Assembly (NCBI RefSeq): GCF_027497235.1
Contig: NZ_CP114902.1
Coordinates: 2,245,501-2,309,500, forward strand
Length of the DNA: 64,000 nucleotides
Direction of reading: 5' to 3'
Origin: Micromonospora sp. WMMD1128
Lineage (GTDB): Bacteria > Actinomycetota > Actinomycetes > Mycobacteriales > Micromonosporaceae
Shown one piece after another: positions 2,219-47,986 of the stretch. The first letter of the stretch is position 1. Every line of letters begins with the position of its first letter. A program made the position numbers and the translations under genes. The notes beneath the pieces are model-generated. The model saw nothing but the letters and a program-made list of their open reading frames with translations, made no database searches and was not told the DNA's origin.

Positions 2219-2906
2219 GGGGCTCAGCGCCGGCTACCACGGCCTGCAGATCCTGCACCAACTCGACCTGCGGGTCGCCGAGGGCGAGATCGTGGCGATC
2301 GTCGGCGCCAACGGCGCCGGCAAGACCACCACGCTCAAGGCGATCTCCGGGCTGATCAGGCCGACCGCGGGCACGATCACCTTCGACGGCCGGCGGGCCG
2401 ACGGCGTACGCCCGAGCGAACTGGTCGGCCGCGGCCTGCTGCACGTGGCGGAGGGGCGGGCGCTGTTCGGGCCGCTCAGCGTCGAGGAGAACCTGCGGAT
2501 GGGCGGCTGGACCCGGGGGCGCAAGCCGCTCGACGAGCCGCTGCGCGAGGTCTACGACCTGTTCCCGATCCTCGCCGAGCGGCGCGCCCAGGCCGCCGAG
2601 ACGCTCAGCGGCGGGCAGCAGCAGATGCTCGCCATCGGCCGGGCGTTGATGGCCGGGCCGCGGCTGCTGCTGCTCGACGAGCCGTCCACCGGCCTGTCGC
2701 CGAAGCTGACCTGGACCGTGCTCGACGCGATCCGGGCGATCCGCGACCGGGGCGTCTCGGTGCTGCTGGTCGAGCAGAACGCCGCGCACGCGCTCAACCT
2801 GGCCGACCGGGCGTACGTGCTGGAGAGCGGCAGCCTGGTCCTCGACGGCCCGGGGCCGGAGCTGGCCCGCGACGACCGGGTCCGCGCCGCGTACCTGGGG
2901 CTCTGA
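2205..2906 (+). CDS. livF: Branched-chain amino acid-type ABC transporter ATPase (LivF)
   Basis: This 233-residue second ATPase of the LIV importer has a canonical Walker A (GANGAGKTT), signature (LSGGQQQMLAIGRAL) and Walker B with the LLLDEPSTGLSP continuation typical of LivF. The H-loop His of most ABC proteins is replaced by the LivF-type VEQN. Its ATG lies 14 bases inside the end of livG, consistent with coupled translation. Paired with LivG it should form the heterodimeric nucleotide-binding domain on the inner face of the membrane. Confidence 0.92.
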   Translation: MLTLEGLSAGYHGLQILHQLDLRVAEGEIVAIVGANGAGKTTTLKAISGLIRPTAGTITFDGRRADGVRPSELVGRGLLHVAEGRALFGPLSVEENLRMGGWTRGRKPLDEPLREVYDLFPILAERRAQAAETLSGGQQQMLAIGRALMAGPRLLLLDEPSTGLSPKLTWTVLDAIRAIRDRGVSVLLVEQNAAHALNLADRAYVLESGSLVLDGPGPELARDDRVRAAYLGL

Positions 2907-2907
2907 C

Positions 2908-4242
2908 GTGACGTCCACCGTGGCGGCCGTGGCCCGGCTCGGCGCCTGGACCGCCGGGCTGCGCTGGGCCGACGTCCCGGACGCCGCCCGCGACCAGCTC
3001 GGGCTGGTGCTGCTCGACTCGCTCGGCGTGACGGCGGTCGGCGCCCGGCAGGCCGAGCAGCGGGCGCTGGCCGCGGCGTGGCGGCCCGGCCCCGGGCCGG
3101 CGCCGCTCGTGGGCGGCGGCGCGACCACCACCGTGGAGGCCGCCGCCTGGCTCAACGCGACGGCGATGGCCCGGCTCGAACTCGACGAGGGACACAAGTA
3201 CGCCAAGGGCCATCCGGCGGCGCACGGGCTGCCCGCGGTGCTCGCGCTCGCCGCCGACCTCGGCGCCCCCGGTCCGGAGACGATGACGGCGCTGCTCGCG
3301 GCCTACGAGGTGGCGGCCCGGTTCGGCCGGGCCACCAACCTGCGGTCCGGGCTGCATCCGCACGGCAGTTGGGGCGTCGCGGGCGCGGCGGCCGGCTGCG
3401 CGCGACTGCTCGGTCTGTCGGGCGAGGGCGTCGCCGCGGCGATCGACGCGGGCGCCGGCCTGCCGGTGGCCGGTCACTTCGCCAGCGCGCTCGACGGCAA
3501 CCCGGTCCGGGACGCCTGGCTGGGCGCGTCCAACCTGTCCGGGCTGGCGGCGGCGCGGATGGCCGCCGCCGGTGTCGCCCGCAACACCGGCACGCCCGCG
3601 GTGTCGCTCGGTGACGTGCTCGGCCGGTTCGACCCGGCGCCGCTCACCGACGGGCTCGGCACGCGCTGGGACGTGCGGCTCGGCTATTTCAAACGGCACG
3701 CGGCGTGCTCGTTCACCCACCCGGCCGCCGACGCGGCCCTGCTGCTGCGCGCCGACGGGCTGGCCCTCGACACCGTCGAGGAGATCCTGGTCGAAACGCA
3801 TTCGCTGGCCGGCGGACTGGCCCGGACGACCTGGGACAGCCGGCTGGCCGCGCTCTTCTCGACGCCGTTCGTGGTGGCCGCCGCGCTTGTGCACGGCGCC
3901 GTCGACCCGGCGGTCTCCGCCGAGGGCCGGCGCGACGACCCGCGGGTACGCGAGCTGGCCGGCAGGGTGGTGCTCCGGGTGGCCCCCGACCTCGACGCGC
4001 GGCTGCCCGACGAGCGGGCGGCCCGGGTGACCGTGCGCCGCGTCGGCGCGCCGCCCCGGGTGATCGAGGTGCCCAACCCGGTCGGCGACGCGGCCCACCA
4101 CCCGATGGCCGAGGGTGACGTGCTCGCGTTGCTCGGCCGCCTGCTCGACGCCGACACCGTCGGGATCGTGCGCGAGGTCGCCGCCGGCCTGGCCGGCAGC
4201 GCCGACGTCGGGCCCGACCTGCGCCGGCTCGCCGAGATCTAG
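2908..4242 (+). CDS. MmgE/PrpD family protein
   Basis: This 444-residue protein belongs to the MmgE/PrpD fold, whose members include 2-methylcitrate dehydratase and cis-aconitate decarboxylase. It shows the family N-terminus (WADVPDAARDQLGLVLLDSLGV), the central LELDEGHKYAKGHPAAHGLPA segment with His and Lys residues that line the active site in relatives, and the later HAACSFTHPAADA segment. The GTG start lies two bases after the livF stop, so the gene is in the transporter operon. The neighbouring racemase, FAD dehydrogenase, hydantoinase and CoA-transferase suggest handling of a di- or tricarboxylate or ureide intermediate. The exact reaction cannot be assigned. Confidence 0.85.
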   Translation: MTSTVAAVARLGAWTAGLRWADVPDAARDQLGLVLLDSLGVTAVGARQAEQRALAAAWRPGPGPAPLVGGGATTTVEAAAWLNATAMARLELDEGHKYAKGHPAAHGLPAVLALAADLGAPGPETMTALLAAYEVAARFGRATNLRSGLHPHGSWGVAGAAAGCARLLGLSGEGVAAAIDAGAGLPVAGHFASALDGNPVRDAWLGASNLSGLAAARMAAAGVARNTGTPAVSLGDVLGRFDPAPLTDGLGTRWDVRLGYFKRHAACSFTHPAADAALLLRADGLALDTVEEILVETHSLAGGLARTTWDSRLAALFSTPFVVAAALVHGAVDPAVSAEGRRDDPRVRELAGRVVLRVAPDLDARLPDERAARVTVRRVGAPPRVIEVPNPVGDAAHHPMAEGDVLALLGRLLDADTVGIVREVAAGLAGSADVGPDLRRLAEI

Positions 4243-4251
4243 GAGAAGACC

Positions 4252-4896
4252 GTGCGGATCTACGCCGTGACCCCGATCCACGTCGACGCCGAGGAACTGG
4301 CCCGCCGGCAGGCGCGCTACGCCGCGCTCGCGCCGCCCGGCGTCGAGGTCGTGCTGCACGACCTCGGGCCGGACGCGCCGCGCGCCCTGGACACCGACGC
4401 GCAGGTACGCCGGAGTGAGGAACTCGTCGTCGCCGCGCTGCGCGGCGCGCCGGCCGGATTCGACGCGCTGCTGCCGGACTGCGTCCTCGACCCGGGTGTC
4501 GCGGACCTCGCCGGCACCCTGCCGGTGCCGGTCCTCGGGTTGCTCCGGCTCAGCCTCGGGTGGGCGGTGCTGACCGGCCGCCGGTGCGCGGCGGTGGCCC
4601 GCAACCGGGCGATCGCCGACGAGATGGTGGCCCGGGCCCGGGTCTACGGCTGGTCGGCCGACCTGCTCGGGGTCGAGGTGCTGGACCTGGACGTGCACGC
4701 GATCGCCGACACCGCCCGCTGGGCGGACGCGCTGGGCGGGGTCGTCGCGACGATGGCCGCGGACGGCGCGCGTACCGTGATCAACGGCTGCTCGGCGGTG
4801 GACGTGCCGGCCGGCGTCACCCTGCCGGCCCGGGTGGTGGATCCGACCGCGCTGGCGCTGCGGCTGATCGCCGCGGGGGAGGTGACTCCCTCATGA
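4252..4896 (+). CDS. Asp/Glu/hydantoin racemase family protein
   Basis: This 214-residue protein is of the Asp/Glu racemase superfamily, which also includes hydantoin racemase, maleate cis-trans isomerase and arylmalonate decarboxylase. The two catalytic-cysteine regions are visible: DCVLDPG near residue 83 and NGCSAVDVP near residue 183. An AGGA-type ribosome site precedes the GTG start. With a hydantoinase-like gene two positions downstream, a hydantoin racemase role is plausible. Maleate isomerase-like chemistry fits the MmgE/PrpD and CoA-transferase neighbours equally well. The stop overlaps the next ATG. Confidence 0.78.
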   Translation: MRIYAVTPIHVDAEELARRQARYAALAPPGVEVVLHDLGPDAPRALDTDAQVRRSEELVVAALRGAPAGFDALLPDCVLDPGVADLAGTLPVPVLGLLRLSLGWAVLTGRRCAAVARNRAIADEMVARARVYGWSADLLGVEVLDLDVHAIADTARWADALGGVVATMAADGARTVINGCSAVDVPAGVTLPARVVDPTALALRLIAAGEVTPS

Positions 4897-6290: not shown

Positions 6291-7756
6291 AACCGCTGGA
6301 GACTTTGATCAAGAACGTCACCGTGGTACGCCCCGACGCCGGCTCGCCGGACGGCGACCGGCTCGACATCGGCGTCGCCGGTGGCAAGGTGGTGCGGTTG
6401 GCGGCGGACATCCCGGCCGACGAGGCGCAGGTCGTGGTGGACGGTCGCGGCCGGTTCGCGTACCCGGGCGCGGTCGACGCGCACCAGCACTGGGGCATCT
6501 ACAACCCGCTGGCCGAGGACACCGCCACGGAGAGCCGCGCCAGCGCGCAGGGCGGCGTCACCACCGGGCTCACCTACATGCGGACCGGGCAGTACTACCT
6601 CAACCGGGGCGGCTCGTACGCGGAGTTCTTCCCGCACGTGCTCGCCGCGTCGGAGGGCCGGTCGTTCATCGACTACGGTTTCCACCTCGCGCCGATGATG
6701 CGGGAGCACATCGACGAGATCCCGTCGATCGTGGAGAACTTCGGCGTCACCTCCTTCAAGATCTTCATGTTCTACGGCAGCCACGGGCTGCACGGGCGCT
6801 CCGCCGACCAGAGTTCGTTCCTGATGATCCCGCCGGACGAGCGCTACGACCTCGCGCACTTCGAGTTCGTGATGCGCGGCGTGCAGGCGGCGCGGGAGAA
6901 GCTGACCGAGGCCGCGCCGCACGTGTCGCTGTCGCTGCACTGCGAGACCGCCGAGATCATGACCGCCTACACCAGGCTGGTCGAGCAGGACGCGTCGCTG
7001 TCCGGCCTCGCCGCCTACAGCGCGTCGCGACCGCCGCACTCGGAGGGGCTCGCGGTGTCGATCGCGGCGTTCCTGGCCGACGAGACCGGCCTGCCCAACA
7101 TCAACCTGCTGCACCTGTCCTCGCGCAAGGCGCTGCGGGCCGCGATGCTGATGGCGAAGACGTTCCCGCACGTCGACTTCCGCCGTGAGGTGACCATCGG
7201 GCACCTGCTGGCCGACGTGGACACCGCGCACGGTCTGGGCGGCAAGGTGAACCCGCCGCTGCGCCCGCGGGAGGACGTGGAGGCGCTCTGGGAGTACGTG
7301 CTCGACGGCAGCGTCGACTGGGTGGTCAGCGACCACGCGTGCTGCAAGGACGAGATGAAGTTCGGCGACCCGCGCGACGACGTCTTCGCCGCGAAGTCCG
7401 GCTTCGGCGGCGCCGAGTACCTGGTGCCCGGCCTGGTCTCCGAGGGGCGCAAGCGAGGGCTGTCGCACCAGCGGATCGCGCAGCTGATCGCCTGGAACCC
7501 GGCCCGCCGCTACGGCCTGCCCGGCAAGGGCACCATCGGGGTCGGCTTCGACGCCGACCTGTGCCTGGTGGAGAACGCCAGCTGGACCGTGCGCGCGGCC
7601 GACTCGGCGTCCACCCAGGAGTACACGCCGTTCGAGGGCTTCGAGATCGGCGCCCGGGTCACCGACACCTGGGTCCGGGGGCGGCGCGTGCTCGACGCCG
7701 GCAACGTCGTCGGCACGCCGAGCGGCCGTTACGTCCACCGTCCGTACCAGGGGTGA
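6287..7756 (+). CDS. Hydantoinase/dihydropyrimidinase-type amidohydrolase
   Basis: This 489-residue cyclic-amide hydrolase is of the D-hydantoinase/dihydropyrimidinase/allantoinase group. Metal-site elements appear in order: the first His pair in VDAHQHWG near residue 64 (HxH, Gln between), the lysine normally carboxylated in SFKIFMFYGS near residue 160, LHCET, LLHLSS and the final Asp in VVSDHACC near residue 350. The TIM-barrel is followed by the beta-sandwich tail (GTIGVGFDADLCLVE). It opens cyclic ureides or imides to carbamoyl or half-amide products. Its place between an FAD dehydrogenase and a CoA-transferase suggests that the acid product is then activated. The ATG overlaps the previous stop. 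Confidence 0.85.
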   Translation: MKPLETLIKNVTVVRPDAGSPDGDRLDIGVAGGKVVRLAADIPADEAQVVVDGRGRFAYPGAVDAHQHWGIYNPLAEDTATESRASAQGGVTTGLTYMRTGQYYLNRGGSYAEFFPHVLAASEGRSFIDYGFHLAPMMREHIDEIPSIVENFGVTSFKIFMFYGSHGLHGRSADQSSFLMIPPDERYDLAHFEFVMRGVQAAREKLTEAAPHVSLSLHCETAEIMTAYTRLVEQDASLSGLAAYSASRPPHSEGLAVSIAAFLADETGLPNINLLHLSSRKALRAAMLMAKTFPHVDFRREVTIGHLLADVDTAHGLGGKVNPPLRPREDVEALWEYVLDGSVDWVVSDHACCKDEMKFGDPRDDVFAAKSGFGGAEYLVPGLVSEGRKRGLSHQRIAQLIAWNPARRYGLPGKGTIGVGFDADLCLVENASWTVRAADSASTQEYTPFEGFEIGARVTDTWVRGRRVLDAGNVVGTPSGRYVHRPYQG

Positions 7757-39244: not shown

Positions 39245-40468
39245 GTGACCACCGTCCCACCGGGAGGTCAGGTGTCCCGTTTCCCGTACCGCCCCGACGT
39301 CGTGCTCGCGCCGGCGTGGGTGGCGGAGCGCCCCGAGACGATCGACCGGCTCAACGAGTTGCTGGCCGACGCGGGCTTCGGTCGTCCGCTGTCGCCGCCG
39401 GCCGCCCCTGCGCCCCCTGACGTCGCACTGATCGAGGTGCCCGTCCAGGGTGACCCGGTGGCCGTGGCCAGGGCCAGCCGCTGGCTGTCCGGCCGTGCCG
39501 AGGGCGTGCCCGAGTGCCTGCCCGACTACGAGTGCACGGCCGCCACCGTGGAGGACGGCGCCCGGCGGGAAGCCAACCTCTACCCCAACTACCGGGCTGG
39601 TGGGCGCAAGAGCGGCCACGGCACCGTCGCCTGGCTCCCGGCGCCCGACCACGTGATGCCACCGAAACCCCGACGCCGTCCGGACCGCGACTTCCCGGCC
39701 GGACGGCCCGTGGTGGCGCTGCTCGACACCGGGGTACGGGAGCACGACTGGCTGGTGGAGGCGGACGGCGAGCCGTGCTGGGAGGAGGCGGAGGGGTGGA
39801 CGCCGCCGCGCGCCATTCCGGAGATCGCGGGTCAGGACGGTCGCGGCGACGAGAGCGACGAGGTGGATTTCGGCAGCCACTGGGGGCACGGCACGTTCCT
39901 CACCGGACTGATGCGGCTGGAAGCGCCCGACGCGAAGATCCTCTCGGTACGGGTGATGAGCGACGCCGGTCGGGTCAGCGACCTGAACGCGGCACACGCA
40001 CTGAACTGGCTGGCCGACCGGGCCGGCGACGGCCGTCGGCTCGACGTGGTGCTGACCGCGTTCGGCCGTCCCGGCTCGGATGGGGACGAGGAGCTGAGAC
40101 CGGTCCGGAAAGCACTGGAGCGGTTGGCGGACCTCGGCGTCCAGGTGGTCGCCTCGGCCGGCAACGGCGGCGCCGACGATCCGGTCTATCCGGCGGCGTT
40201 CGCGGCCGACCCGACGCTCACGGTGATCAGCGTCGGGGCCCGCTCCTCGCCGACCGTGCGGGCGCCCTACAGCAATCACGGGGTGTGGGTGAGCCGGTGG
40301 CACGAGGGCACCCATGCGGTGAGCACCATGCCGTTGGCCACGACCCCCGCCGCGACGGGGGGCGCGTACGCCTACTGGAGCGGCACGTCGTTCGCGGCGG
40401 CTAGGTGCGCGGGCCGGCTCGCCCACCGGTTGGCGCCGGCGTCCGCGCCCGTGCGGCTCCCGGAGTGA
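39245..40468 (+). CDS. Subtilisin-like (S8) serine peptidase, cytoplasmic
   Basis: This 407-residue S8-family peptidase has a complete triad: Asp161 in ALLDTGV, His215 in HWGHGTF, Ser382 in GTSFAAA. The oxyanion region SAGNGG is also present. There is no signal peptide or propeptide-like hydrophobic start, so it probably acts in the cytoplasm. The first 150 residues are not a known inhibitor domain and could be a recognition module. The sigma factor starts four bases after its stop and a TPR-CHAT protein lies three genes on, suggesting that it is part of a signalling module. The GTG at 39245 is chosen; an in-frame GTG at 39272 is possible. Confidence 0.86.
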   Translation: MTTVPPGGQVSRFPYRPDVVLAPAWVAERPETIDRLNELLADAGFGRPLSPPAAPAPPDVALIEVPVQGDPVAVARASRWLSGRAEGVPECLPDYECTAATVEDGARREANLYPNYRAGGRKSGHGTVAWLPAPDHVMPPKPRRRPDRDFPAGRPVVALLDTGVREHDWLVEADGEPCWEEAEGWTPPRAIPEIAGQDGRGDESDEVDFGSHWGHGTFLTGLMRLEAPDAKILSVRVMSDAGRVSDLNAAHALNWLADRAGDGRRLDVVLTAFGRPGSDGDEELRPVRKALERLADLGVQVVASAGNGGADDPVYPAAFAADPTLTVISVGARSSPTVRAPYSNHGVWVSRWHEGTHAVSTMPLATTPAATGGAYAYWSGTSFAAARCAGRLAHRLAPASAPVRLPE

Positions 40469-40472
40469 CGTC

Positions 40473-41063
40473 GTGTCCACGGTGTCCGGAAGCCCGGTGG
40501 ACCGCGCGACCCGGCTCGGCGAGTGCCTCGACCGGGCCCGGGCGGGCGACCGGGGCGCCCTCGACGAGGTGGTCCGGGAGCTCAACCCGTTGCTGTGGCG
40601 CGTCGCCCGCGCCCAGGGTCTGACCGCCGAGGAGGCCGCCGACGTCGTGCAGACGACCTGGCTGGAGCTGGTACGCGGACTGCACGCCATCCGGTCCTCG
40701 ACGTCGCTCGCCGCGTGGCTGGTGACCACCACCCGCCGGGAAGCCTGGCGGGTGCGCGGGCTCGCGCAGCGGCAGGCCCCGCACCCCGCGGCGGACCTCG
40801 AATCCTCGCCCGACCCGGATCCCGGCCCGGTCGACGTGCTGCTGTCCGAGGAACGTGACCGGGCGCTGTGGCGGCACGTCGCGCGACTGCCGGAGCGGTG
40901 CCGGACGCTGCTGCGGATCGTCGCCCACGTCGATCGTCCCGACTACGCGGCGGTGGCCCAGGCGCTGGGCATGCCACGCGGCAGCATCGGACCGACCCGT
41001 GGCCGGTGCCTGGCGAAGCTGCGGGAGTTGCTGGCCGCCGACTCGACGTGGAGCCCCACATGA
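40473..41063 (+). CDS. ECF-type RNA polymerase sigma factor
   Basis: This 196-residue sigma-70-like factor has a region 2 in the first half (RELNPLLWRVARAQGLTAEE, ADVVQTTWLELVRGL) and a region 4 helix-turn-helix near residues 135-180 (DYAAVAQALGMPRGSIGPTR). It lies in an operon with a subtilase and a CHAT protein, and no classical anti-sigma factor with a zinc-binding or membrane segment is encoded alongside. The next protein overlaps its stop (ATGA) and is the best candidate partner. Control by proteolysis is a reasonable inference. Confidence 0.9.
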   Translation: MSTVSGSPVDRATRLGECLDRARAGDRGALDEVVRELNPLLWRVARAQGLTAEEAADVVQTTWLELVRGLHAIRSSTSLAAWLVTTTRREAWRVRGLAQRQAPHPAADLESSPDPDPGPVDVLLSEERDRALWRHVARLPERCRTLLRIVAHVDRPDYAAVAQALGMPRGSIGPTRGRCLAKLRELLAADSTWSPT

Positions 41064-41548
41064 CCGCCCCGCACTCCGCCGACCAGCCGCTCGACGACCT
41101 GGACCAGGCGATCCTGGACCAGTTGGCCGCGGTGCTCACCCGACTGGATCCGCCGCCCGCCGATCTCGACGACCGGGTGCGCCTCGTGCTGGACCTCGAC
41201 GACGTCGACCGGGAGGTCGCCCGGCTGCGCGACGAGCACCTCGTCGGCACGGTCCGGGGCACCGAACGGAGCCGTACCCTGACGTTCGACTCGGAGAGCC
41301 GGACCGTGATGATCACGATCGTGGACCGGCCCGACGGCCTCGTACGGGTCGACGGCTGGCTCGCGCCCGGCGCCGCCGTGCGCGTCGAACTGCGGCACCC
41401 GGCTCCCGACCCGGCCCAGACCGTGGAGTCCGACGCGGAGGGGCGGTTCGTGCTGGACGGCGTGCCGCACGGCTTGGCGCAGCTCGTCGTGCACCCGGCG
41501 CCGGGCGAACACACGCCGCAGGTGGTCACGCCGGCCCTCGCCCTGTGA
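41060..41548 (+). CDS. Small acidic protein with carboxypeptidase-regulatory-like beta-sandwich
   Basis: This 162-residue protein is translationally coupled to the sigma gene and has no recognised function. The N-terminal third is acidic and helical (DQPLDDLDQAILDQLAAVL ... LDDVDREVARLRD). The rest looks like a beta-sandwich (GLVRVDGWLAPGAAVRVEL, EGRFVLDGVPHGLAQLVV) similar to carboxypeptidase-regulatory-like domains. It has no membrane segment or cysteine cluster. Position suggests a sigma-binding or adaptor role, possibly a substrate of the adjacent proteases. Confidence 0.7.
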   Translation: MTAPHSADQPLDDLDQAILDQLAAVLTRLDPPPADLDDRVRLVLDLDDVDREVARLRDEHLVGTVRGTERSRTLTFDSESRTVMITIVDRPDGLVRVDGWLAPGAAVRVELRHPAPDPAQTVESDAEGRFVLDGVPHGLAQLVVHPAPGEHTPQVVTPALAL

Positions 41549-41549
41549 C

Positions 41550-44072
41550 GTGGAGCCGGCCGTGCTCGCCCGCCGGGCAGCCCGCTGGCACGCGGCGGGC
41601 GTGGCTTCGAGCGACGCCGGCCAGCCGGGTCGGGCCGCCCGGGAACTGCGGGCGGGCCTGCGGTTGGCCAGGCACAACCCGGCCCTGCGCGAGGTCCACG
41701 TCCGGCTGCTGATCAGTCTCGCCTGGGCCGAGTCCGAACGGGGTCGGGTGGAGCTGGGCTTCCGGTTGCTCGACGAGGCCGAGGCGCTCGTGGCCGCGCC
41801 GCAGTGGCCGATCCTGCTCGGCCAGCGAGCCCTCCTGCTCAAGCGCAGCGGTCGCAACGCGGAGGCGTTGCGTCAGTACGACGCGGCCGTCGGCCTGTTG
41901 AACGACATGGCGCATCCGTCCGACCTGGTCAAGGCGCTCAACAACCGCAGCCTCGTGCACCTGGAGGCGGGCCACGTCCGGCTGGCCCGGGCCGACCTGC
42001 GACGTTGCGTCGAGATCGCCGCACGACACGGGTTCACCCTGCATGTGGCGATGGCGCGGACGAACCTGGGTTGTCTCGACGTGATCGCCGGTGACCTGCC
42101 CTCCGCGTTGCGCGCGTTCACCCTGTCCGACGCCGACTACCGGTCGCTCGCGCCGGGCCGGCTCGCGAACCTGGCCGTGGAACGGGCCCGCGCACTTGTC
42201 GCGGCCGGGCTCTACCGGGAGGCGGACCGGCAACTGGCTGATGCGGTGCAGCGGGCGACGCAGCAGCAGCTCGGACACACGTACGCCGATGCGCTCCAGG
42301 TCCGCGCGGAGGCGGCCCTGCTCGCCGGCGAGCCGATCGCTGCCGCCCGGTGGGCGTCGCGAGCCCGGGCCGCGTTCCTCGGCCGGGCCAACGTCCGCCG
42401 GGCCGCTCTCGCCGCGCTGCTCGAGCTGCGCGCCGACCAGGCGGCCGGCGCGGTCGACCAGGAGACGGTGTTACGGCGAGCCGGGGCGCTGGCCGGGCGG
42501 TTGACCCGGCTCGGGCTGACGGAGGACGCCCGGGTCGCCCACCTGGTCAAGATCCGGGCGTTGGTGTCCGCGGGACGACCGCGGCGGGCTGCGGAGCAGA
42601 TCGGGCGACAGGCCGGACCACGGCGGACCGACCGGCTCGACACGCGCCTGCTCTGGCACCTGACCCGGGCGGAGGTGGCGGCCTCCGCCGGCCGGGCCGG
42701 TGAGGCTCGGCGGAGCCTGCTGGCCGGAGTGACCGCGCTGCACCGGTACCGCGCCCGGTTCGGCTGCGCCGATCTTCAGACGGGGGCCGCGGTGCACGGC
42801 CGCGACCTGGCCCGGGCCGGGCTTGCCGCGGCGTTGTCCGGTGGCTCGGCCAACGCCGTCTACCGGTGGTCCGAGCGCGTTCGGGCTCAGGCGCTGCTGC
42901 TGCCGCCGGTACGACCCCCCGATGACCCGATCGCCGCCGAGGCCCTGGAGGAACTGCGCCAGTTGCGGCACAGCCTCCGTGAGGCCGAACTCGCCGGCCG
43001 CCCGACGCGGAGCTTCCGCAGCCGGTCGGAGGAGCTCCAGCGGGTGATCCGGGAGCGGGCCTGGGCGACCCCGGGCCCTCGGGACGCGGTGCCCTCGGCG
43101 CCGGCGCCGCTTGCCGCCGTGACGGCGGAGCTGGCCGGCGCGGCGCTCGTGCTGTACGTGAACGCCGGGGACATCCTGCACGCGCTCGTGGTCACCGACC
43201 GGGCGGCCACGGTGGTGGCGCTCGGCCGGCGCGCCACGGCCGAGGAGGCGGTCCGGCGGTTGCGCGCCGACCTCGACGCGCAGGCGGGCCGCGCCATGCC
43301 CGGACGGCTGGCCGCGGTGGTCCGCGCCGCAACTCGACGGGATGCCGACCTGGTGGGCGCGACGGTGCTCGACCCGGTTCTTCCCCTGGTCGGCGATCGG
43401 GAACTGGTGGTGGTTCCGACCGGGATGCTGCTGACCACGCCGTGGCACACACTGCCGGCGTGCGCGTCCCGGCCGGTCACGGTGGCGCCGTCGGTCGCGG
43501 TCTGGTTGGCCGCCCGGCGTCGCCTGCACGCCGGCGCCCCCACCGGCGGCGCGGTGGTGGTGTCGGGTCCGGGTATCCACCGGGGTGAGGCGGAGGCCCG
43601 GGCCGTGGCATCGCTGCATCCGGGCGCGGTGGTGCTGACCGGAGCGGAGGCGACCCCGGCCGCGGCGCTCATCGCGCTGGCCGGCGCCCGCGTCGCCCAC
43701 GTCGCCGCGCACGGACAGCACCAGACCGAGAACCCGTTGTTCTCCACGTTGGAGCTGACCGGCGGCCCGCTTATGGGTTACGACGTGCAGGGGCTGCGGG
43801 TCGCGCCGCGTACCGTCGTGCTGTCCTGTTGTGACCTGGGCCTGACCGACGTGCGGCACGGCGACGAGGCGCTCGGCATGCCGACCGCCCTGCTCGCCGC
43901 GGGCACCGCCACGGTCGTCGCGAGCGTCGCCCGGGTCGGCGACGAGGCGGCGACGGAGGCGATGGTGGCCTATCACCGCGCGGTCGGGGCGGGCCGGAGC
44001 CCGGCCGCGGCGCTGGCCGAGGCGGCAACCGGCGACCAGCCCTCGGCCTTCGTGTGTTTCGGCGCCGGCTGA
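41550..44072 (+). CDS. TPR-CHAT protein (caspase-like protease)
   Basis: This 840-residue protein has an N-terminal array of TPR-like helical pairs over roughly residues 1-450 and a C-terminal CHAT domain. CHAT domains are caspase-like cysteine protease folds. The likely dyad is His721 in HVAAHGQHQTENPLF and Cys761 in LSCCDLG. The TPR region would sense a partner or ligand and gate the protease. It starts one base after the preceding stop. Proteins of this architecture act in bacterial immunity and signalling, for example in the Craspase complex where TPR-CHAT cleaves a factor that controls an ECF sigma. Here there is no CRISPR component, and the sigma is in the same operon. Confidence 0.85.
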   Translation: MEPAVLARRAARWHAAGVASSDAGQPGRAARELRAGLRLARHNPALREVHVRLLISLAWAESERGRVELGFRLLDEAEALVAAPQWPILLGQRALLLKRSGRNAEALRQYDAAVGLLNDMAHPSDLVKALNNRSLVHLEAGHVRLARADLRRCVEIAARHGFTLHVAMARTNLGCLDVIAGDLPSALRAFTLSDADYRSLAPGRLANLAVERARALVAAGLYREADRQLADAVQRATQQQLGHTYADALQVRAEAALLAGEPIAAARWASRARAAFLGRANVRRAALAALLELRADQAAGAVDQETVLRRAGALAGRLTRLGLTEDARVAHLVKIRALVSAGRPRRAAEQIGRQAGPRRTDRLDTRLLWHLTRAEVAASAGRAGEARRSLLAGVTALHRYRARFGCADLQTGAAVHGRDLARAGLAAALSGGSANAVYRWSERVRAQALLLPPVRPPDDPIAAEALEELRQLRHSLREAELAGRPTRSFRSRSEELQRVIRERAWATPGPRDAVPSAPAPLAAVTAELAGAALVLYVNAGDILHALVVTDRAATVVALGRRATAEEAVRRLRADLDAQAGRAMPGRLAAVVRAATRRDADLVGATVLDPVLPLVGDRELVVVPTGMLLTTPWHTLPACASRPVTVAPSVAVWLAARRRLHAGAPTGGAVVVSGPGIHRGEAEARAVASLHPGAVVLTGAEATPAAALIALAGARVAHVAAHGQHQTENPLFSTLELTGGPLMGYDVQGLRVAPRTVVLSCCDLGLTDVRHGDEALGMPTALLAAGTATVVASVARVGDEAATEAMVAYHRAVGAGRSPAAALAEAATGDQPSAFVCFGAG

Positions 44073-44136
44073 GCCACGCGAGCCGGAGCGGGTCGGCCGC
44101 GGGTATCCAGTCGGCGGCTCCGTCCCCCATCCAGGC

Positions 44137-45096
44137 ATGACTGACCACACCATGAGAAGGCTCCCACGCCGTGCGGCTCTCGCCGCCGGCCTCACCGTGC
44201 TCACGCTGGCAGCCAGCCCTCTGGCCGGGTGCCGGACGAACGGCGGCGCGTCCGGTGGCGGCGCCGCGAACGGCTCGGTCGCCGGCGCGGCCGACGGCCT
44301 CGCGAAGGTCGCCGGTGGCGGCTGCCCGGCGGCCGGCACCCGGACCGGCGGGCTGCTGCCGAAGCTGGGCGAGGAGGACTACACCTCGATCGAGAACCCC
44401 TGCCTGCCCTACACGGATCTGGTGAGCGAGGTGACGGGGCGGATCGTTCCCGGGCAGCGGGCCCAGGCCGGGCAGTTCCTCGACCACCTCGGCCGGTTCG
44501 CCGACCGGCTCGGTCAGGTCAACGACGCCGTCGAGTGCGCGTACCGGACGGACCGGCTGGCGGTGCGCATCTACCAGAGCCGGCGCGACTCGTGGGCCGT
44601 CGGCGTCGTGGCGGTCGTCCGGGGCCGCCTCGGCGCGGTCGCCGACACCACCGCCTGCTTCCTGATCCAGCAGATCCCACTCCTGGGCCTGGCCACCCAG
44701 GGCGACGGACCGCGCCGGGACGCTCCGGCGTACTGCTTCGACACCACCCACCAACGGCGGGGCGGCGAGGACTACACCATCATGTGGATCGGCTCGTCCT
44801 CGTTGACCTGCCGAGGGCTCCAGGAGGGCCTGGTCCCGGGCGACGGCCGGCTCGTCGCGGTGGCGGCCCGGACCGGTGCGTCCCTCCGCTCGGGTCCGGG
44901 CACCTCAGCCCGGGCGTTGCGACAGGTGCCCGGCGGCACGCTGGGCCGGATGACCTGCTACCGCCGCGGCGAAGCCGTCGACGGCGAGGACGCCTGGGCG
45001 CGGGCGACGGTCCTCGGCGACACGGGCTGGATCGCGGCGGCGTACCTGGACAGCTCCCTGCCGATCCGGAGCGCCCCCGTCTGCTCGGACGGTTGA
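44137..45096 (+). CDS. Lipoprotein with C-terminal SH3-like domain
   Basis: This 319-residue exported lipoprotein has a twin-Arg-containing basic start, a hydrophobic segment and a lipobox LAGC near residue 31, followed by a Gly/Ala-rich linker. The middle part has several cysteines and no recognised fold. The last 80 residues resemble a bacterial SH3 domain (VAARTGASLRSGPGTSARAL ... WIAAAYLDSS), usually a peptidoglycan-binding or protein-binding module. It lies 64 bases after the CHAT gene on the same strand and before the peptide gene, so it may be the envelope component of the same locus. A second in-frame ATG is at 44152. Confidence 0.75.
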   Translation: MTDHTMRRLPRRAALAAGLTVLTLAASPLAGCRTNGGASGGGAANGSVAGAADGLAKVAGGGCPAAGTRTGGLLPKLGEEDYTSIENPCLPYTDLVSEVTGRIVPGQRAQAGQFLDHLGRFADRLGQVNDAVECAYRTDRLAVRIYQSRRDSWAVGVVAVVRGRLGAVADTTACFLIQQIPLLGLATQGDGPRRDAPAYCFDTTHQRRGGEDYTIMWIGSSSLTCRGLQEGLVPGDGRLVAVAARTGASLRSGPGTSARALRQVPGGTLGRMTCYRRGEAVDGEDAWARATVLGDTGWIAAAYLDSSLPIRSAPVCSDG

Positions 45097-45209
45097 GCGG
45101 CAGCCGGTCGGAACGGAATCCGGCGGCTCGGTATCTGGCGGCGGCCCCGCCGCCACACATGAGCAAGGCCGGCGGGAAGCCGTCCCAGCCGGGGAAGGGA
45201 GCAGGACCG

Positions 45210-45443
45210 ATGTGTGTCATTCAGGTCGGTGCCGAGGATCTGGAGAACATCCTCGCCAGCCGAGGGCCGGACATCGCCGGTGAGGAGGCTGCCGCGTGCG
45301 GAGTCCAGGTCGGGACGCCGGAGCTGAGCCGGATCCTGGCCAACCGCAAGGCCGCGCCGCTCGCGGCCGAGGCGGCCTGCGGAATCCAGGTCGGCGCGCC
45401 GGAGAACGTCGCGTTGCCGCGCGACGCCGATCCGGCCGCCTAG
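45210..45443 (+). CDS. Candidate RiPP precursor with three C-x-x-Q-V-G repeats
   Basis: This 77-residue peptide contains three units beginning at Cys2, Cys30 and Cys57: CVIQVGAEDL, CGVQVGTPEL and CGIQVGAPEN. The spacing is 28 and 27 residues. The first two units continue with a matching ILASR/ILANR ending. There are no other cysteines. A strong ribosome site (GAAGGGAG, eight bases before) supports ATG 45210; an in-frame ATG at 45159 would add 17 residues. A radical SAM/SPASM gene follows after a hairpin. I infer a substrate peptide in which each repeat is modified, but I do not recognise the family. Confidence 0.72.
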   Translation: MCVIQVGAEDLENILASRGPDIAGEEAAACGVQVGTPELSRILANRKAAPLAAEAACGIQVGAPENVALPRDADPAA

Positions 45444-45460
45444 CCGGACGCACCACTCGC

Positions 45461-45495
45461 GGGGCCCGCCGTCCGCCGCACGGCCGGCGGGCCCC
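45461..45495 (+). terminator. Strong hairpin between peptide and maturase genes
   Basis: GGGGCCCGCCG at 45461-45471 and CGGCGGGCCCC at 45485-45495 form a perfect 11-bp stem with a 13-base loop, 17 bases after the peptide stop. It probably acts as a partial terminator or RNA stabiliser that keeps precursor expression above that of the maturase. Confidence 0.65.
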
Positions 45496-45534
45496 ACCAC
45501 CGCGGTACCCCACAATCCGTACGGAAGGAAAGCC

Positions 45535-46719
45535 ATGATCGGCACTCGCCTGGACGATGTTGACGCGCCGCGCCTGATCCGCGGCGCGTACGGCTGGTGG
45601 TTCATCGGGAACCAGACCTGGACTCTGCTGCGTCCGGAGTGTGTGGGGCCCGACGGGACGGTGGACGGCGACGCCGTCGGTTTCCTTCGCCGCGTCGGGG
45701 CGTTCCGGCCGCGCACGCCGACCTCGTTCTCCCTGACCGTGCTCACCACCACCACCTGCAACCTCGGCTGTGGTTACTGCTTCCAGAACACCGGACTGGA
45801 CGAGACGGGTGGCGCACGGCCGCCGCGAATCGGGCGGGCCTGGCTTGACGACGACGTGATCGACCGCGTCATCGCGTTCACCCGCGACCGGATGCGTCGG
45901 TGCGAGATGGACCGCCTCTTCCTGCTGCTGTTCGGCGGTGAGCCGCTACTCAACCCGCGCGGCTGCCTCAACCTGCTGGACCGGGCCCGCACGATCGGCC
46001 TCGACAGGTGCGCGATGACGACGAACGGCGTGCTGCTGACGCCGAGGCTGGCGCGTGAGTTGTACGCGGCGGGTCTCCACGGCGCGCAGGTGACGTTCGA
46101 CGGGAGCCGGGCGGACCACGACCGGATCCGGGTCAAGCGGTCCGGGGCGCCCACCTTCGACACCATCCTGCGCAACGTGGCCCGTGCGATCGAGGTGACC
46201 GGGCTCAACTGGAATCTGCGGGTCAATGTGTCGCACCACAACGTCGACCGGATCGGTGACCTGGTCGGTGAGTTGGCCGCCGACCTCATCCCCGACCGGT
46301 GCACGGTGACGTTCGCCTGGGTGGGTGACGCGGGCTTCGGCTACCGCAACACCATGCGGCATCTGGACGAGGTGAGCGACGCCTTCGTGAGCTGGAGCAT
46401 CGCGGCGTTGGAGGCGGGGTTCCGGATGGCCCGGCCCGGGATGAGGACCACCTGCCAGATCTGCTCGGTGCCCGGAGGCCGCTACGGCGCGGTGGTCAAC
46501 GCCGACGGCAAGCTCTTCAGTTGTTGGCAGTCGGCCGGGAAACCCGGCTTCGAGGTGGGTGACGTCGACGAGGGTTACCTGGACGTGGCAGGTGTCCCGG
46601 AGCGCTGGGTGACCTGCGGGTACGAGTACGAGCAACCCGACCGGGCACGGTTCGACTCGTTCCAGGACCGGGTGGACGGCCGGCTGTTGGACTACCTGCA
46701 CACAACCGGTCGCCTGTGA
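45535..46719 (+). CDS. Radical SAM/SPASM-type peptide maturase
   Basis: This 394-residue radical SAM protein has the cluster motif Cys75, Cys79 and Cys82 (CNLGCGYC), followed by LLFGGEPLL and a TTNGVLL strand. A C-terminal SPASM or twitch-like region contributes CQIC near residue 307, SCWQS near 330 and CGYEYE near 361 as probable auxiliary-cluster ligands. The N-terminal segment (RLIRGAYGWWFIGNQTWTLL) may bind the leader. A good ribosome site (GGAAGGAAAG) precedes the ATG. This architecture is typical of enzymes that form thioether, C-C or C-N links in peptides. The repeat peptide directly upstream is its obvious substrate. Confidence 0.88.
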   Translation: MIGTRLDDVDAPRLIRGAYGWWFIGNQTWTLLRPECVGPDGTVDGDAVGFLRRVGAFRPRTPTSFSLTVLTTTTCNLGCGYCFQNTGLDETGGARPPRIGRAWLDDDVIDRVIAFTRDRMRRCEMDRLFLLLFGGEPLLNPRGCLNLLDRARTIGLDRCAMTTNGVLLTPRLARELYAAGLHGAQVTFDGSRADHDRIRVKRSGAPTFDTILRNVARAIEVTGLNWNLRVNVSHHNVDRIGDLVGELAADLIPDRCTVTFAWVGDAGFGYRNTMRHLDEVSDAFVSWSIAALEAGFRMARPGMRTTCQICSVPGGRYGAVVNADGKLFSCWQSAGKPGFEVGDVDEGYLDVAGVPERWVTCGYEYEQPDRARFDSFQDRVDGRLLDYLHTTGRL

Positions 46720-46727
46720 CCCGGATG

Positions 46728-47396
46728 TCATCCGACGGTCGGCGGATCGTTGTACCGGTCGGCGACCTCCTGGCCGGACAGTTTCTGGATGGCGGTCATG
46801 ATCTCGTCGGTGACCGCCCGTCGGGCCTGCCCGCCGCTGCCGGCGGGCTGCCGGGTGAAGCGCAGCGGTGTGCCGAACCGCACGGTGATCCGCCCAGGTC
46901 TGGGCAGCCGGGCGCCGACGGGTTGGATCCGGTCGGTGCCGAGCAGGGCGACCGGGACCACCGGGGCGCCGGAGGCGAGCGCGAGCCAGGCGACGCCGGT
47001 CCGGCCGCGGTAGAGCCGCCCGTCGCGGGACCGGCTGCCCTCCGGGTGGATGCCGAAGGCGCGCCCGGCGGCGAGCACGTCGAGCGCCACCCGCAGCGAC
47101 TCCTGCGCCGAGCGGTGGCCGCCCCGCTCCACCGGAATGGCGTCGATCCCGGTGAGGCAGGTCCGGGTCAGCCATCCCTTCACGCCGGGCTGCCGGAAAT
47201 ATTCGGCCTTGGCCAGGAAGGCGACCGGTCGGGGGGCCACCAGCGGGATCACCACACTGTCGAGGAAGGACAGGTGGTTGGCGGCCAGGATCACCGGCCC
47301 GTGCCTCGGCACGTTGTCCCGGCCTTCGACCGCCGGCCGGAAGGCGAGCCGGCCCAGCGGGGCCAGCAGCAGCCGCGTGCCGGTCTGCGTCAGCAC
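46728..47396 (-). CDS. 1-acyl-sn-glycerol-3-phosphate acyltransferase (PlsC) family protein
   Basis: This 222-residue lysophospholipid acyltransferase has the catalytic NHLSFLD motif (NHxxxxD) near residue 44 and the substrate-binding HPEGSRSRDG block near residue 117, plus the later PVVPVALLG. It would acylate lysophosphatidic acid or a related acceptor at the membrane. I chose the GTG at 47396, which has GGAGGA four bases upstream and overlaps the TetR stop by seven bases, over a longer frame that runs into the TetR gene. It is cotranscribed with, and probably controlled by, that regulator. Confidence 0.85.
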   Translation of the reverse strand: MLTQTGTRLLLAPLGRLAFRPAVEGRDNVPRHGPVILAANHLSFLDSVVIPLVAPRPVAFLAKAEYFRQPGVKGWLTRTCLTGIDAIPVERGGHRSAQESLRVALDVLAAGRAFGIHPEGSRSRDGRLYRGRTGVAWLALASGAPVVPVALLGTDRIQPVGARLPRPGRITVRFGTPLRFTRQPAGSGGQARRAVTDEIMTAIQKLSGQEVADRYNDPPTVG

Positions 47397-47986
47397 GTGA
47401 TCCTCCGATCGAGGTGGGCCGTCAGCGCGGCGCGCAGCAGCGGTTCGAGATCGTCGTCGCGCACCATGAGCTGGAGACTGCCCCACTGCCCGAGCTCGGC
47501 GATGCCGTGCAGGTTGGCCCAGAGCGCGCCGGCGACGACCTGTGGCGCGGGGGAGCCGGGCACCTCGGGCCGGGCCCGGGTGACGAGGTCGACCAGGACG
47601 CCGAAGAGTCCCTCGCTGGCCTCCCGCAGCCCGACGCCGTTGCCCCGGAGCAGGTCGTGCCGGAACATCAGCTCGAACATGCCGCGGTGGGTGCGCGCGA
47701 ACGTCAGGTAGAGCCGGCCCAGGGCGAGCAGTTGCCGGTGTGGGTCGGCGTCACCCTGGCGGGCGAGCGTCTCGGCGACCTCGCGGCCGAGCTGTTGGTA
47801 GCCCTCCCGCGCGATGGCTGCCAGCAGAGCGAGGTGGGTCGGGAAGTAGCGGCGCGGCGCGCCGTGGGAGACCCCGGCCCGGCGGGCGATCGCGCGCAGC
47901 GTCAGCGCCTCGGCGCCCTCCCGGGCGAGCAGGTCCACGCCGGCGGAGACCAGGCGGGTGCGGAGGCTGCTGTCCGGCGGCGGCAT
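47390..47986 (-). CDS. TetR-family transcriptional regulator
   Basis: This 198-residue repressor has a typical N-terminal helix-turn-helix (ALTLRAIARRAGVSHGAPRRYFPTH) and a ligand-binding C-terminal domain of the WHG/TetR_C type (MFELMFRHDL). The start codon itself overlaps a palindrome at 47986-47998, and a second copy lies at 48008-48022, a clear sign of autoregulation. It leads a two-gene unit with the acyltransferase. Because the sites also lie upstream of the Rieske oxygenase gene, they could affect that gene as well. Confidence 0.9.
   Translation of the reverse strand: MPPPDSSLRTRLVSAGVDLLAREGAEALTLRAIARRAGVSHGAPRRYFPTHLALLAAIAREGYQQLGREVAETLARQGDADPHRQLLALGRLYLTFARTHRGMFELMFRHDLLRGNGVGLREASEGLFGVLVDLVTRARPEVPGSPAPQVVAGALWANLHGIAELGQWGSLQLMVRDDDLEPLLRAALTAHLDRRITC

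Follow-up and report, generated by a model that had tools for sequence, protein, structure and literature searches.

A three-core peptide gene paired with a radical SAM enzyme in Micromonospora, a candidate pathway for a Cys-crosslinked RiPP

Genes and features of the locus

The window analyzed here is a 64,000-nucleotide stretch of the Micromonospora sp. WMMD1128 genome (NZ_CP114902.1, positions 2,245,501 to 2,309,500, forward strand). It contains an open reading frame (ORF) for a 77-residue peptide with three Cys-containing cores, followed on the same strand by a G+C-rich hairpin and by a gene for a radical S-adenosylmethionine (SAM) enzyme. The two genes may form a pathway for a ribosomally synthesized and post-translationally modified peptide (RiPP). 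Their features, in window coordinates, are listed below.

45210..45443, + strand: candidate precursor peptide gene, 77 residues, three C-x-[VI]-Q-V-G cores (ORF, protein selection, conserved homologues)
45213..45230, + strand: core 1, CVIQVG (read from the sequence; CxIQxG in 8/8 distinct homologues)
45243..45263, + strand: inter-core element 1, ENILASR (IL..RGP invariant in 8/8; perhaps corresponding to VVAH in relatives)
45297..45314, + strand: core 2, CGVQVG (read from the sequence; CGxQxG in 8/8)
45327..45347, + strand: inter-core element 2, SRILANR (LANR invariant in 8/8)
45378..45395, + strand: core 3, CGIQVG (read from the sequence; CGIQxG in 8/8)
45461..45495, + strand: G+C-rich hairpin between the two genes (kept in two relatives with stem substitutions)
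45535..46719, + strand: putative radical SAM peptide maturase, 394 residues
45757..45780, + strand: CX3CX2C cluster motif, CNLGCGYC (all three Cys in 64/64 enzymes)
46453..46617, + strand: C-terminal C307, C310, C330 and C361, probable auxiliary-cluster ligands (conserved in 64, 64, 59 and 64 of 64)

The peptide has Cys at residues 2, 30 and 57 (spacings of 28 and 27) and none elsewhere. Its three units were found just where a preliminary description of this DNA had placed them, at 27-28-residue spacing and with no further Cys. Among 200,000 shuffles of the peptide's own residues, 325 gave at least one C..Q[VI]G and none gave two or more. Eight distinct peptides of the window type were compared (the window, L085, L086, L092 and P0002 to P0005), all from Micromonosporaceae except P0005, whose source is unlabelled. 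In the eight, every core keeps its Cys, Gln and last Gly without exception, and both inter-core elements keep their Arg; strict conservation of Cys and Gln was the check that the preliminary description had proposed. That description would have been contradicted by a lack of protein selection, and pairwise dN/dS values among the peptide genes of the window, L085, L086 and L092 are instead 0.27-0.52, or up to 0.56 when a three-sequence alignment is used. The differences between L085 and L086 fall mostly on third codon positions (3, 4 and 8 for the three positions), and those in two comparisons with the window are spread over the three positions (13, 14, 19 and 16, 12, 18). The 77-residue peptide is thus a real gene under moderate purifying selection.

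The reading frame is open upstream of Met1 in the window and in two related loci (L001 and L002), and a leader encoded there was considered. This start was rejected because differences over the 36 codons 5' of the ATG have no third-position bias (9-14-9, 7-12-8 and 4-3-5) and because a GA-rich, ribosome-binding-like stretch stands directly before the ATG at 45210.

The downstream protein belongs to the radical SAM superfamily: it matches Pfam PF04055 at 54.7 bits (cutoff 29.5), adopts the radical SAM fold and carries the CX3CX2C motif found in every enzyme compared. The gene is as the preliminary description had it, with a Cys-rich C-terminus and on the same strand 3' of the peptide and the hairpin, while the label SPASM proved too generous. 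A full SPASM domain has a seven-Cys C-terminal motif, whereas four conserved Cys follow the core domain here. These four probably bind an auxiliary cluster, and the C-terminus resembles what we take to be the shorter twitch type. Two more conserved Cys, C144 (57/64) and C256 (62/64), lie N-terminal to them. Residues 13-53 form one helix with three short strands, and structure 5why aligns from residue 9 onwards, which bears on the question of a winged-helix RiPP recognition element. The closest sequence and fold matches of the enzyme are entries on thioether formation. PADLOC also matched it to viperin models at 41.8 and 24.1 bits, as is expected for many radical SAM proteins.

By folding energy, the hairpin at 45461-45495 hardly stands out in the window, where 6 of 200 shuffles reach an equally stable fold (z -1.9), and the whole interval between the two genes has a z of -1.1 against shuffles. 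It is kept in two Micromonospora relatives despite changed stem bases, with z values of -3.9 and -3.8. Over 24 loci (60 shuffles each) the hairpins between precursor and enzyme genes range from z -0.7 to -5.3, and hairpin strength is therefore only a trend. The window hairpin is perhaps a partial terminator that favours the precursor transcript. An Rfam scan of 44000-47500 gave no match at the gathering threshold.

Peptide and enzyme are inherited together. The peptide adjoins the enzyme in 4/4 Micromonosporaceae genomes whose enzyme is at least 84% identical to that of the window (G000, G004, G039 and G160). The peptide is present in 3 of 160 genomes of the genus; the enzyme is found at E <=1e-60 in six of them, and the copies at least 86% identical to the window enzyme are in the same three peptide-bearing genomes. 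At E <=1e-130 the enzyme occurs in 4 of 350 genomes of the family, including G160 from another genus, whose locus has a peptide with all cores beside the enzyme. A protein search with the peptide returned four matches besides the window's own, and the three that are named are each a Micromonospora 'hypothetical protein'. A short precursor-like gene thus stands, and is inherited, beside an enzyme of a modifying type, as expected of a RiPP locus. The earlier suggestion of a RiPP precursor with a radical SAM maturase acting at one site per repeat, across the Cys-to-Gln run, gains support at the sequence level from the 4/4 pairing and the invariant Cys and Gln.

A wider actinobacterial family

A pattern scan of genome contigs yielded 62 loci with a related enzyme, mostly from Streptomyces, Kitasatospora and other actinobacteria. 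A short Cys-core peptide lies within 5 kb of the enzyme in 59 of them, the opposite of what would have refuted the preliminary description, namely that no homologue of the small frame stands beside related enzymes. Fifty-six of these were found by script; the other three, L001 (M. acroterricola), L002 (M. parastrephiae) and L035, were dropped by the script's filters and seen in small-ORF listings. The remaining three loci (L027, L028 and L043) have at most 2.2 kb of contig upstream. As a control, a general pattern (a VVAH-like element together with a Cys and a low number of basic residues, the +3 position of the Cys being left free) matched 56/62 real loci, a few of them through other ORFs (e.g. 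L015 and L031), 1/62 dinucleotide-shuffled loci and 0/6 unrelated 11-kb pieces of the window.

The typical family peptide is short and acidic and carries E-[VI]-V-A-H, and then, about 4-22 residues on, a Cys, two residues that are mostly small or aliphatic, and N, H, Q or D. Most family peptides combine a VVAH-like element with C-x-x-[N/H/Q/D] in one to six copies, with two to six repeats in several of them, and the cores of relatives include CIVNNS, CVINTG, CGVNTG, CGVHQE, CFSNSG and CIGDMT. The C-x-x-Q-V-G pattern of the preliminary description is therefore not a general rule: the place of the Gln is taken by N, H or D in relatives, V-G is branch-specific, and the window peptide represents one branch of a broad actinobacterial family, to which it belongs through its homologous enzyme.

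In 62 precursor-like ORFs from 58 loci together with three hand-added peptides, the +3 residue is N, H, Q or D for 100 of 116 Cys. Five of the 16 exceptions are in the spurious-looking ORFs of L015 and L087, and many of the others are in peptides with a second Cys; the L015 ORF also contributes at least one of the 100 conforming Cys. With an automatic filter and the window branch left out, the count is 85 of 99. Both sets include a few spurious ORFs, and the counts are not independent events because related loci share ancestry. The L057 peptide, one of the script's 56, is no test of the rule, since the pattern that found it asked for C-x-x-[NHQD]. When proteins were searched with 18 aligned single-core peptides, 270 relatives were returned at E <=10, with no functional name among the 120 listed. 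Those 120 contain 122 Cys with N (108), H (5), D (5) or another residue (4) at +3, a distribution that leans towards Asn because the query alignment is itself rich in C-x-x-N. Two of the 120 end exactly at the +3 Asn (C-L-I-N).

At the enzyme level, 680 relatives were found at E <=1e-40 among the 7,997 scored candidates sharing most words. In the enzyme tree, core type tracks the clade (the clade labels being our own), and the window stands beside L003, L004, L005 and L054. The window enzyme is 44-71% identical to those of loci outside Micromonospora, with L057 as the exception at 36%. The best bridge to the window is a Streptomyces lilacinus locus (L016), whose peptide has three units, each with VIAH or VVAH and then CVVQLG or CGVQLG; two readable parts of its enzyme are 67 and 71% identical to the window enzyme, and it was left out of the tree because of an assembly gap in that gene.

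Comparison with L016 bears on the leader. The preliminary description had seen none, and nothing indeed precedes core 1. However, cores 2 and 3 of the window-type peptides are each preceded, at 13-14 residues, by ILA[S/N]R, a distance like that of VVAH in L016, and many relatives have a VVAH-like element before each core. From the Ala of inter-core element 1 to the next Cys the distance is 14 residues, against 13 in unit 2 of L016. By position, ILA[S/N]R may correspond to the VVAH of relatives. Homology of the two was also considered and left unsupported: a profile comparison aligned only the core, with a probability of 2.6%.

Two arrangements of precursor-like genes differ from a single gene before the enzyme. 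In L006 and L055, three differing precursor-like peptides with differing core residues stand in tandem upstream of one enzyme. Before a distant enzyme (L088, Micromonospora genome G047), two successive ORFs just upstream of position 6439 share the C-terminal 19-residue peptide MAIEIYDLDETRGNCAINL, which is of the C-x-x-N type (CAINL); these would be unusually small candidate precursors. The searches that detected them found no such peptide for the enzyme of G089.

Proposed chemistry and alternatives

We then propose a model in which the locus is a two-gene RiPP pathway and the 77-residue peptide a three-core precursor. The radical SAM enzyme would bind the precursor, cleave SAM at its CX3CX2C cluster and modify each core once. 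The sulfur of the Cys would be bonded to a carbon in the side chain of the +3 residue, which is Gln here and Asn, His or Asp in relatives, and the product would be a small thioether ring like those of ranthipeptides, formed three times per peptide. We assign a probability of about 0.55 to this reading as a whole, that is, to a two-gene pathway that forms one Cys-to-(+3) crosslink per core, probably as a non-alpha thioether. Its parts differ in strength. That the enzyme modifies the peptide is very likely, and that the site comprises the Cys and the +3 residue is probable. A non-alpha thioether as the bond has about even odds. The Cys-to-(+3) joining is drawn from analogy with known Cys-Asn and Cys-Asp non-alpha thioethers and from a thioether enzyme being the best structural match. 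As described in PMC13361665 and PMC8326336, the Cys of NxxcA is bonded to the C-beta of an Asn and the Cys of freyrasin to an Asp.

Several alternatives were weighed against this model. The small ORF could be no gene, or could have nothing to do with the enzyme; short ORFs in G+C-rich DNA are mostly spurious, and dN/dS is only moderately low. This reading is already contradicted by three repeats beyond chance, by eight distinct homologues with invariant cores and by pairing of this kind, seen at most related loci but at 1/62 shuffled ones, so that we regard it as extremely improbable. A less remote alternative keeps the RiPP and changes the chemistry: the Cys itself would be altered without a crosslink, for example by C-beta oxidation as by anSME, and the polar +3 residue would only aid binding. 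Such a Cys-only change appears unlikely, given the preference for N, H, Q or D at +3 in both Cys sets, the two peptides that end exactly at that residue and the thioether-formation entries among the top sequence and fold matches. Somewhat less likely again is a crosslink of another kind, such as an alpha-thioether, a C-C bond or a bond linking the Cys with the first aliphatic residue or the second. The bonds made by radical SAM maturases are of many types (PMC9062424 and PMC8326336), and in the 116-Cys set +1 or +2 often holds V or I; however, +1 is Gly for 47 of the 116 and +2 varies (V, I, G, T, S and others), and a single aliphatic partner is therefore not kept.

The last alternative concerns the genes upstream, in which the peptide would be a substrate or signal of the following module.

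39245..45096, + strand: S8 protease, sigma factor, small protein, TPR-CHAT protease and SH3 lipoprotein-like protein (neighbours that travel with the pair; the names 'sigma factor' and 'lipoprotein' come from our reading of the sequences, without a family match)

Here the CHAT protease would cleave ILA[S/N]R behind its invariant Arg and release one core per fragment, which we consider doubtful and rank below the chemical alternatives. Cleavage on the C-terminal side of Arg is common in the clan to which CHAT proteases belong, the CHAT protein of the window has the His and Cys motifs, and the linker Arg is invariant in both elements of all eight peptides. The order S8, sigma factor, small ORF, CHAT, peptide and enzyme recurs in all three single-contig loci (window, L085 and L092), and the block of the window and of L085 also has the SH3 gene. 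CHAT (E <=1e-100) and SH3 (E <=1e-20) occur in the same 4 of 160 genus genomes, three of which are the sole carriers of the peptide. However, G160 (L092) retains peptide and enzyme with an interrupted CHAT frame and no SH3. The CHAT frame is also interrupted in G053 (L084), and in G039 (L086) a frame change falls at a contig edge, so that CHAT is whole only in the window and in G004. G053 has CHAT and SH3 and gave no match to peptide or enzyme in a fragmented assembly. Within the flanks compared, the CHAT and SH3 gene clusters (16 and 17) were seen only at L001, L002 and the window. The peptide begins about 650 (L085) and about 590 (L086) bases after SH3, and it is therefore hardly in one operon with it. 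CHAT or SH3 as a required partner is weakened by the interrupted frames and by the absence of SH3 from G160. Since CHAT is broken in relatives and no match to the pair was seen in G053, the block is treated as a co-travelling neighbour.

As for the distribution of the block, in G004 it lies on one contig with the pair, in G160 likewise without SH3, and in G039 it is split over contigs. The stretch from the S8 protease through the sigma-like factor and the small protein to the TPR-CHAT protease (window 39245-44072) is sporadic in Micromonospora, as the CHAT count of 4/160 genomes indicates. The S8 protease is similar to QhpE at 55.7 bits against a cutoff of 165, a mere lead for a role as leader peptidase, and PADLOC has no model for the five upstream proteins.

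Returning to the crosslink model, we tentatively suggest, at less than even odds, that the pair belongs to an undescribed and widespread class of actinobacterial RiPPs. One radical SAM lineage would join Cys to the +3 side chain and accept Asn, Asp, His or Gln there, and the window peptide, with recognition elements between its cores, would receive three such links and become a chain of Cys-Gln rings, a product of which we know no report. No name for the peptide-enzyme family was found in the open-access literature searched, and its motif strings retrieved no radical SAM or RiPP paper. PMC9062424 describes 22 unexplored radical SAM RiPP pathways, among which the family may be, and the atlas of Clark and Seyedsayamdost (2022) may also include it.

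Neighbouring genes and comparison with known systems

To compare gene neighbourhoods, ORFs of the 62 loci and the window were clustered with a rough caller based on G+C content. The counts are approximate, because the caller recovered the known enzyme in only 46 of the 63 loci and may have taken ORFs from the wrong strand, and each cluster name rests on one or two scanned members. Among the conserved clusters, one with an MFS protein is present in 39 loci, one with an S9 prolyl oligopeptidase in 33 and one with a second radical SAM protein in 25. A further cluster is found in 35 loci; its L018 member is a DUF6895 protein and its L037 member has no Pfam match. DUF6895 is reportedly a lasso-peptide epimerase, going by the title of a 2026 paper. 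In the neighbour scans, none of these four kinds of gene lies close to the window pair.

The second radical SAM protein (L037:985-2067 and 24 other loci) stands near many single-core loci, and the nearest models of the scanned L037 member are YydG-type peptide epimerases, at 37 of 300 bits and far under the cutoff. Beside several loci of the CGVHQE type lies a cytochrome P450 gene cluster, represented by L007:3085-4455 and present in 10 further loci. In the Phytohabitans locus L003, an MFS protein 3' of the enzyme (L003:6196-7566) has a C-terminal DVVAH like the precursor element, which could reflect chance, docking or a fused precursor tail. The same locus encodes, beside this radical SAM family, a LanKC-type synthetase (2309-4891) and a 46-residue precursor (2212-2349) with DVEAH, SCSPLC and what is presumably an LDLQ-type leader motif. 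From its gene content, L003 is likely a lanthipeptide-radical SAM hybrid.

If the crosslink model holds, the family would be a large one with a simple C-x-x-polar rule and natural variation in the acceptor residue. The window version, with three sites per peptide, would lend itself to easy mass-based tests, and acceptor choice, iteration and leader placement could be studied with one enzyme. The natural pairing with LanKC in L003 would show radical and lanthionine chemistry combined.

Among known systems, the nearest solved relative of the window enzyme is the thioether-forming maturase 5wgg. This SCIFF ranthipeptide maturase (5wgg and 5why, which we take to be CteB) shares about 17% identity with the window enzyme, which has fewer auxiliary Cys, and the SCIFF precursor has six Cys whereas the window precursor has one-Cys cores. 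By the NCBIfam cutoffs, the window enzyme is outside the SCIFF maturase family (58 bits, cutoff 425) and outside PapB (70.7 bits, cutoff 340). Its top radical SAM/SPASM maturase models there are TIGR04463 (106.9 bits, cutoff 525) and CefB NF038107 (101.7 bits, cutoff 600), and it is a member of neither because the scores are far under the cutoffs. The spacing in PapB/freyrasin is C-x3-D, against C-x2-X in the present family.

In the class III lanthipeptide system of L003, LanKC and a precursor with leader and DVEAH adjoin the same radical SAM family; the window pair has no LanKC among the scanned adjoining genes, and its cores lack Ser. Freyrasin has repeated Cys-to-Asp units, and Asp also occurs in the present family (CIGD). 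The NxxcA/NxxcB system of Streptococcus, of the NxxC beta-thioether RiPPs, likewise pairs a radical SAM maturase with a peptide in which a Cys and an Asn are three residues apart; there the Asn is upstream of the Cys and the bridge is single, whereas in the present family the Asn is downstream. Set beside these systems, the window pair would encode a RiPP of the radical SAM kind whose precursor family apparently has no name and follows a Cys-(+3 polar) rule.
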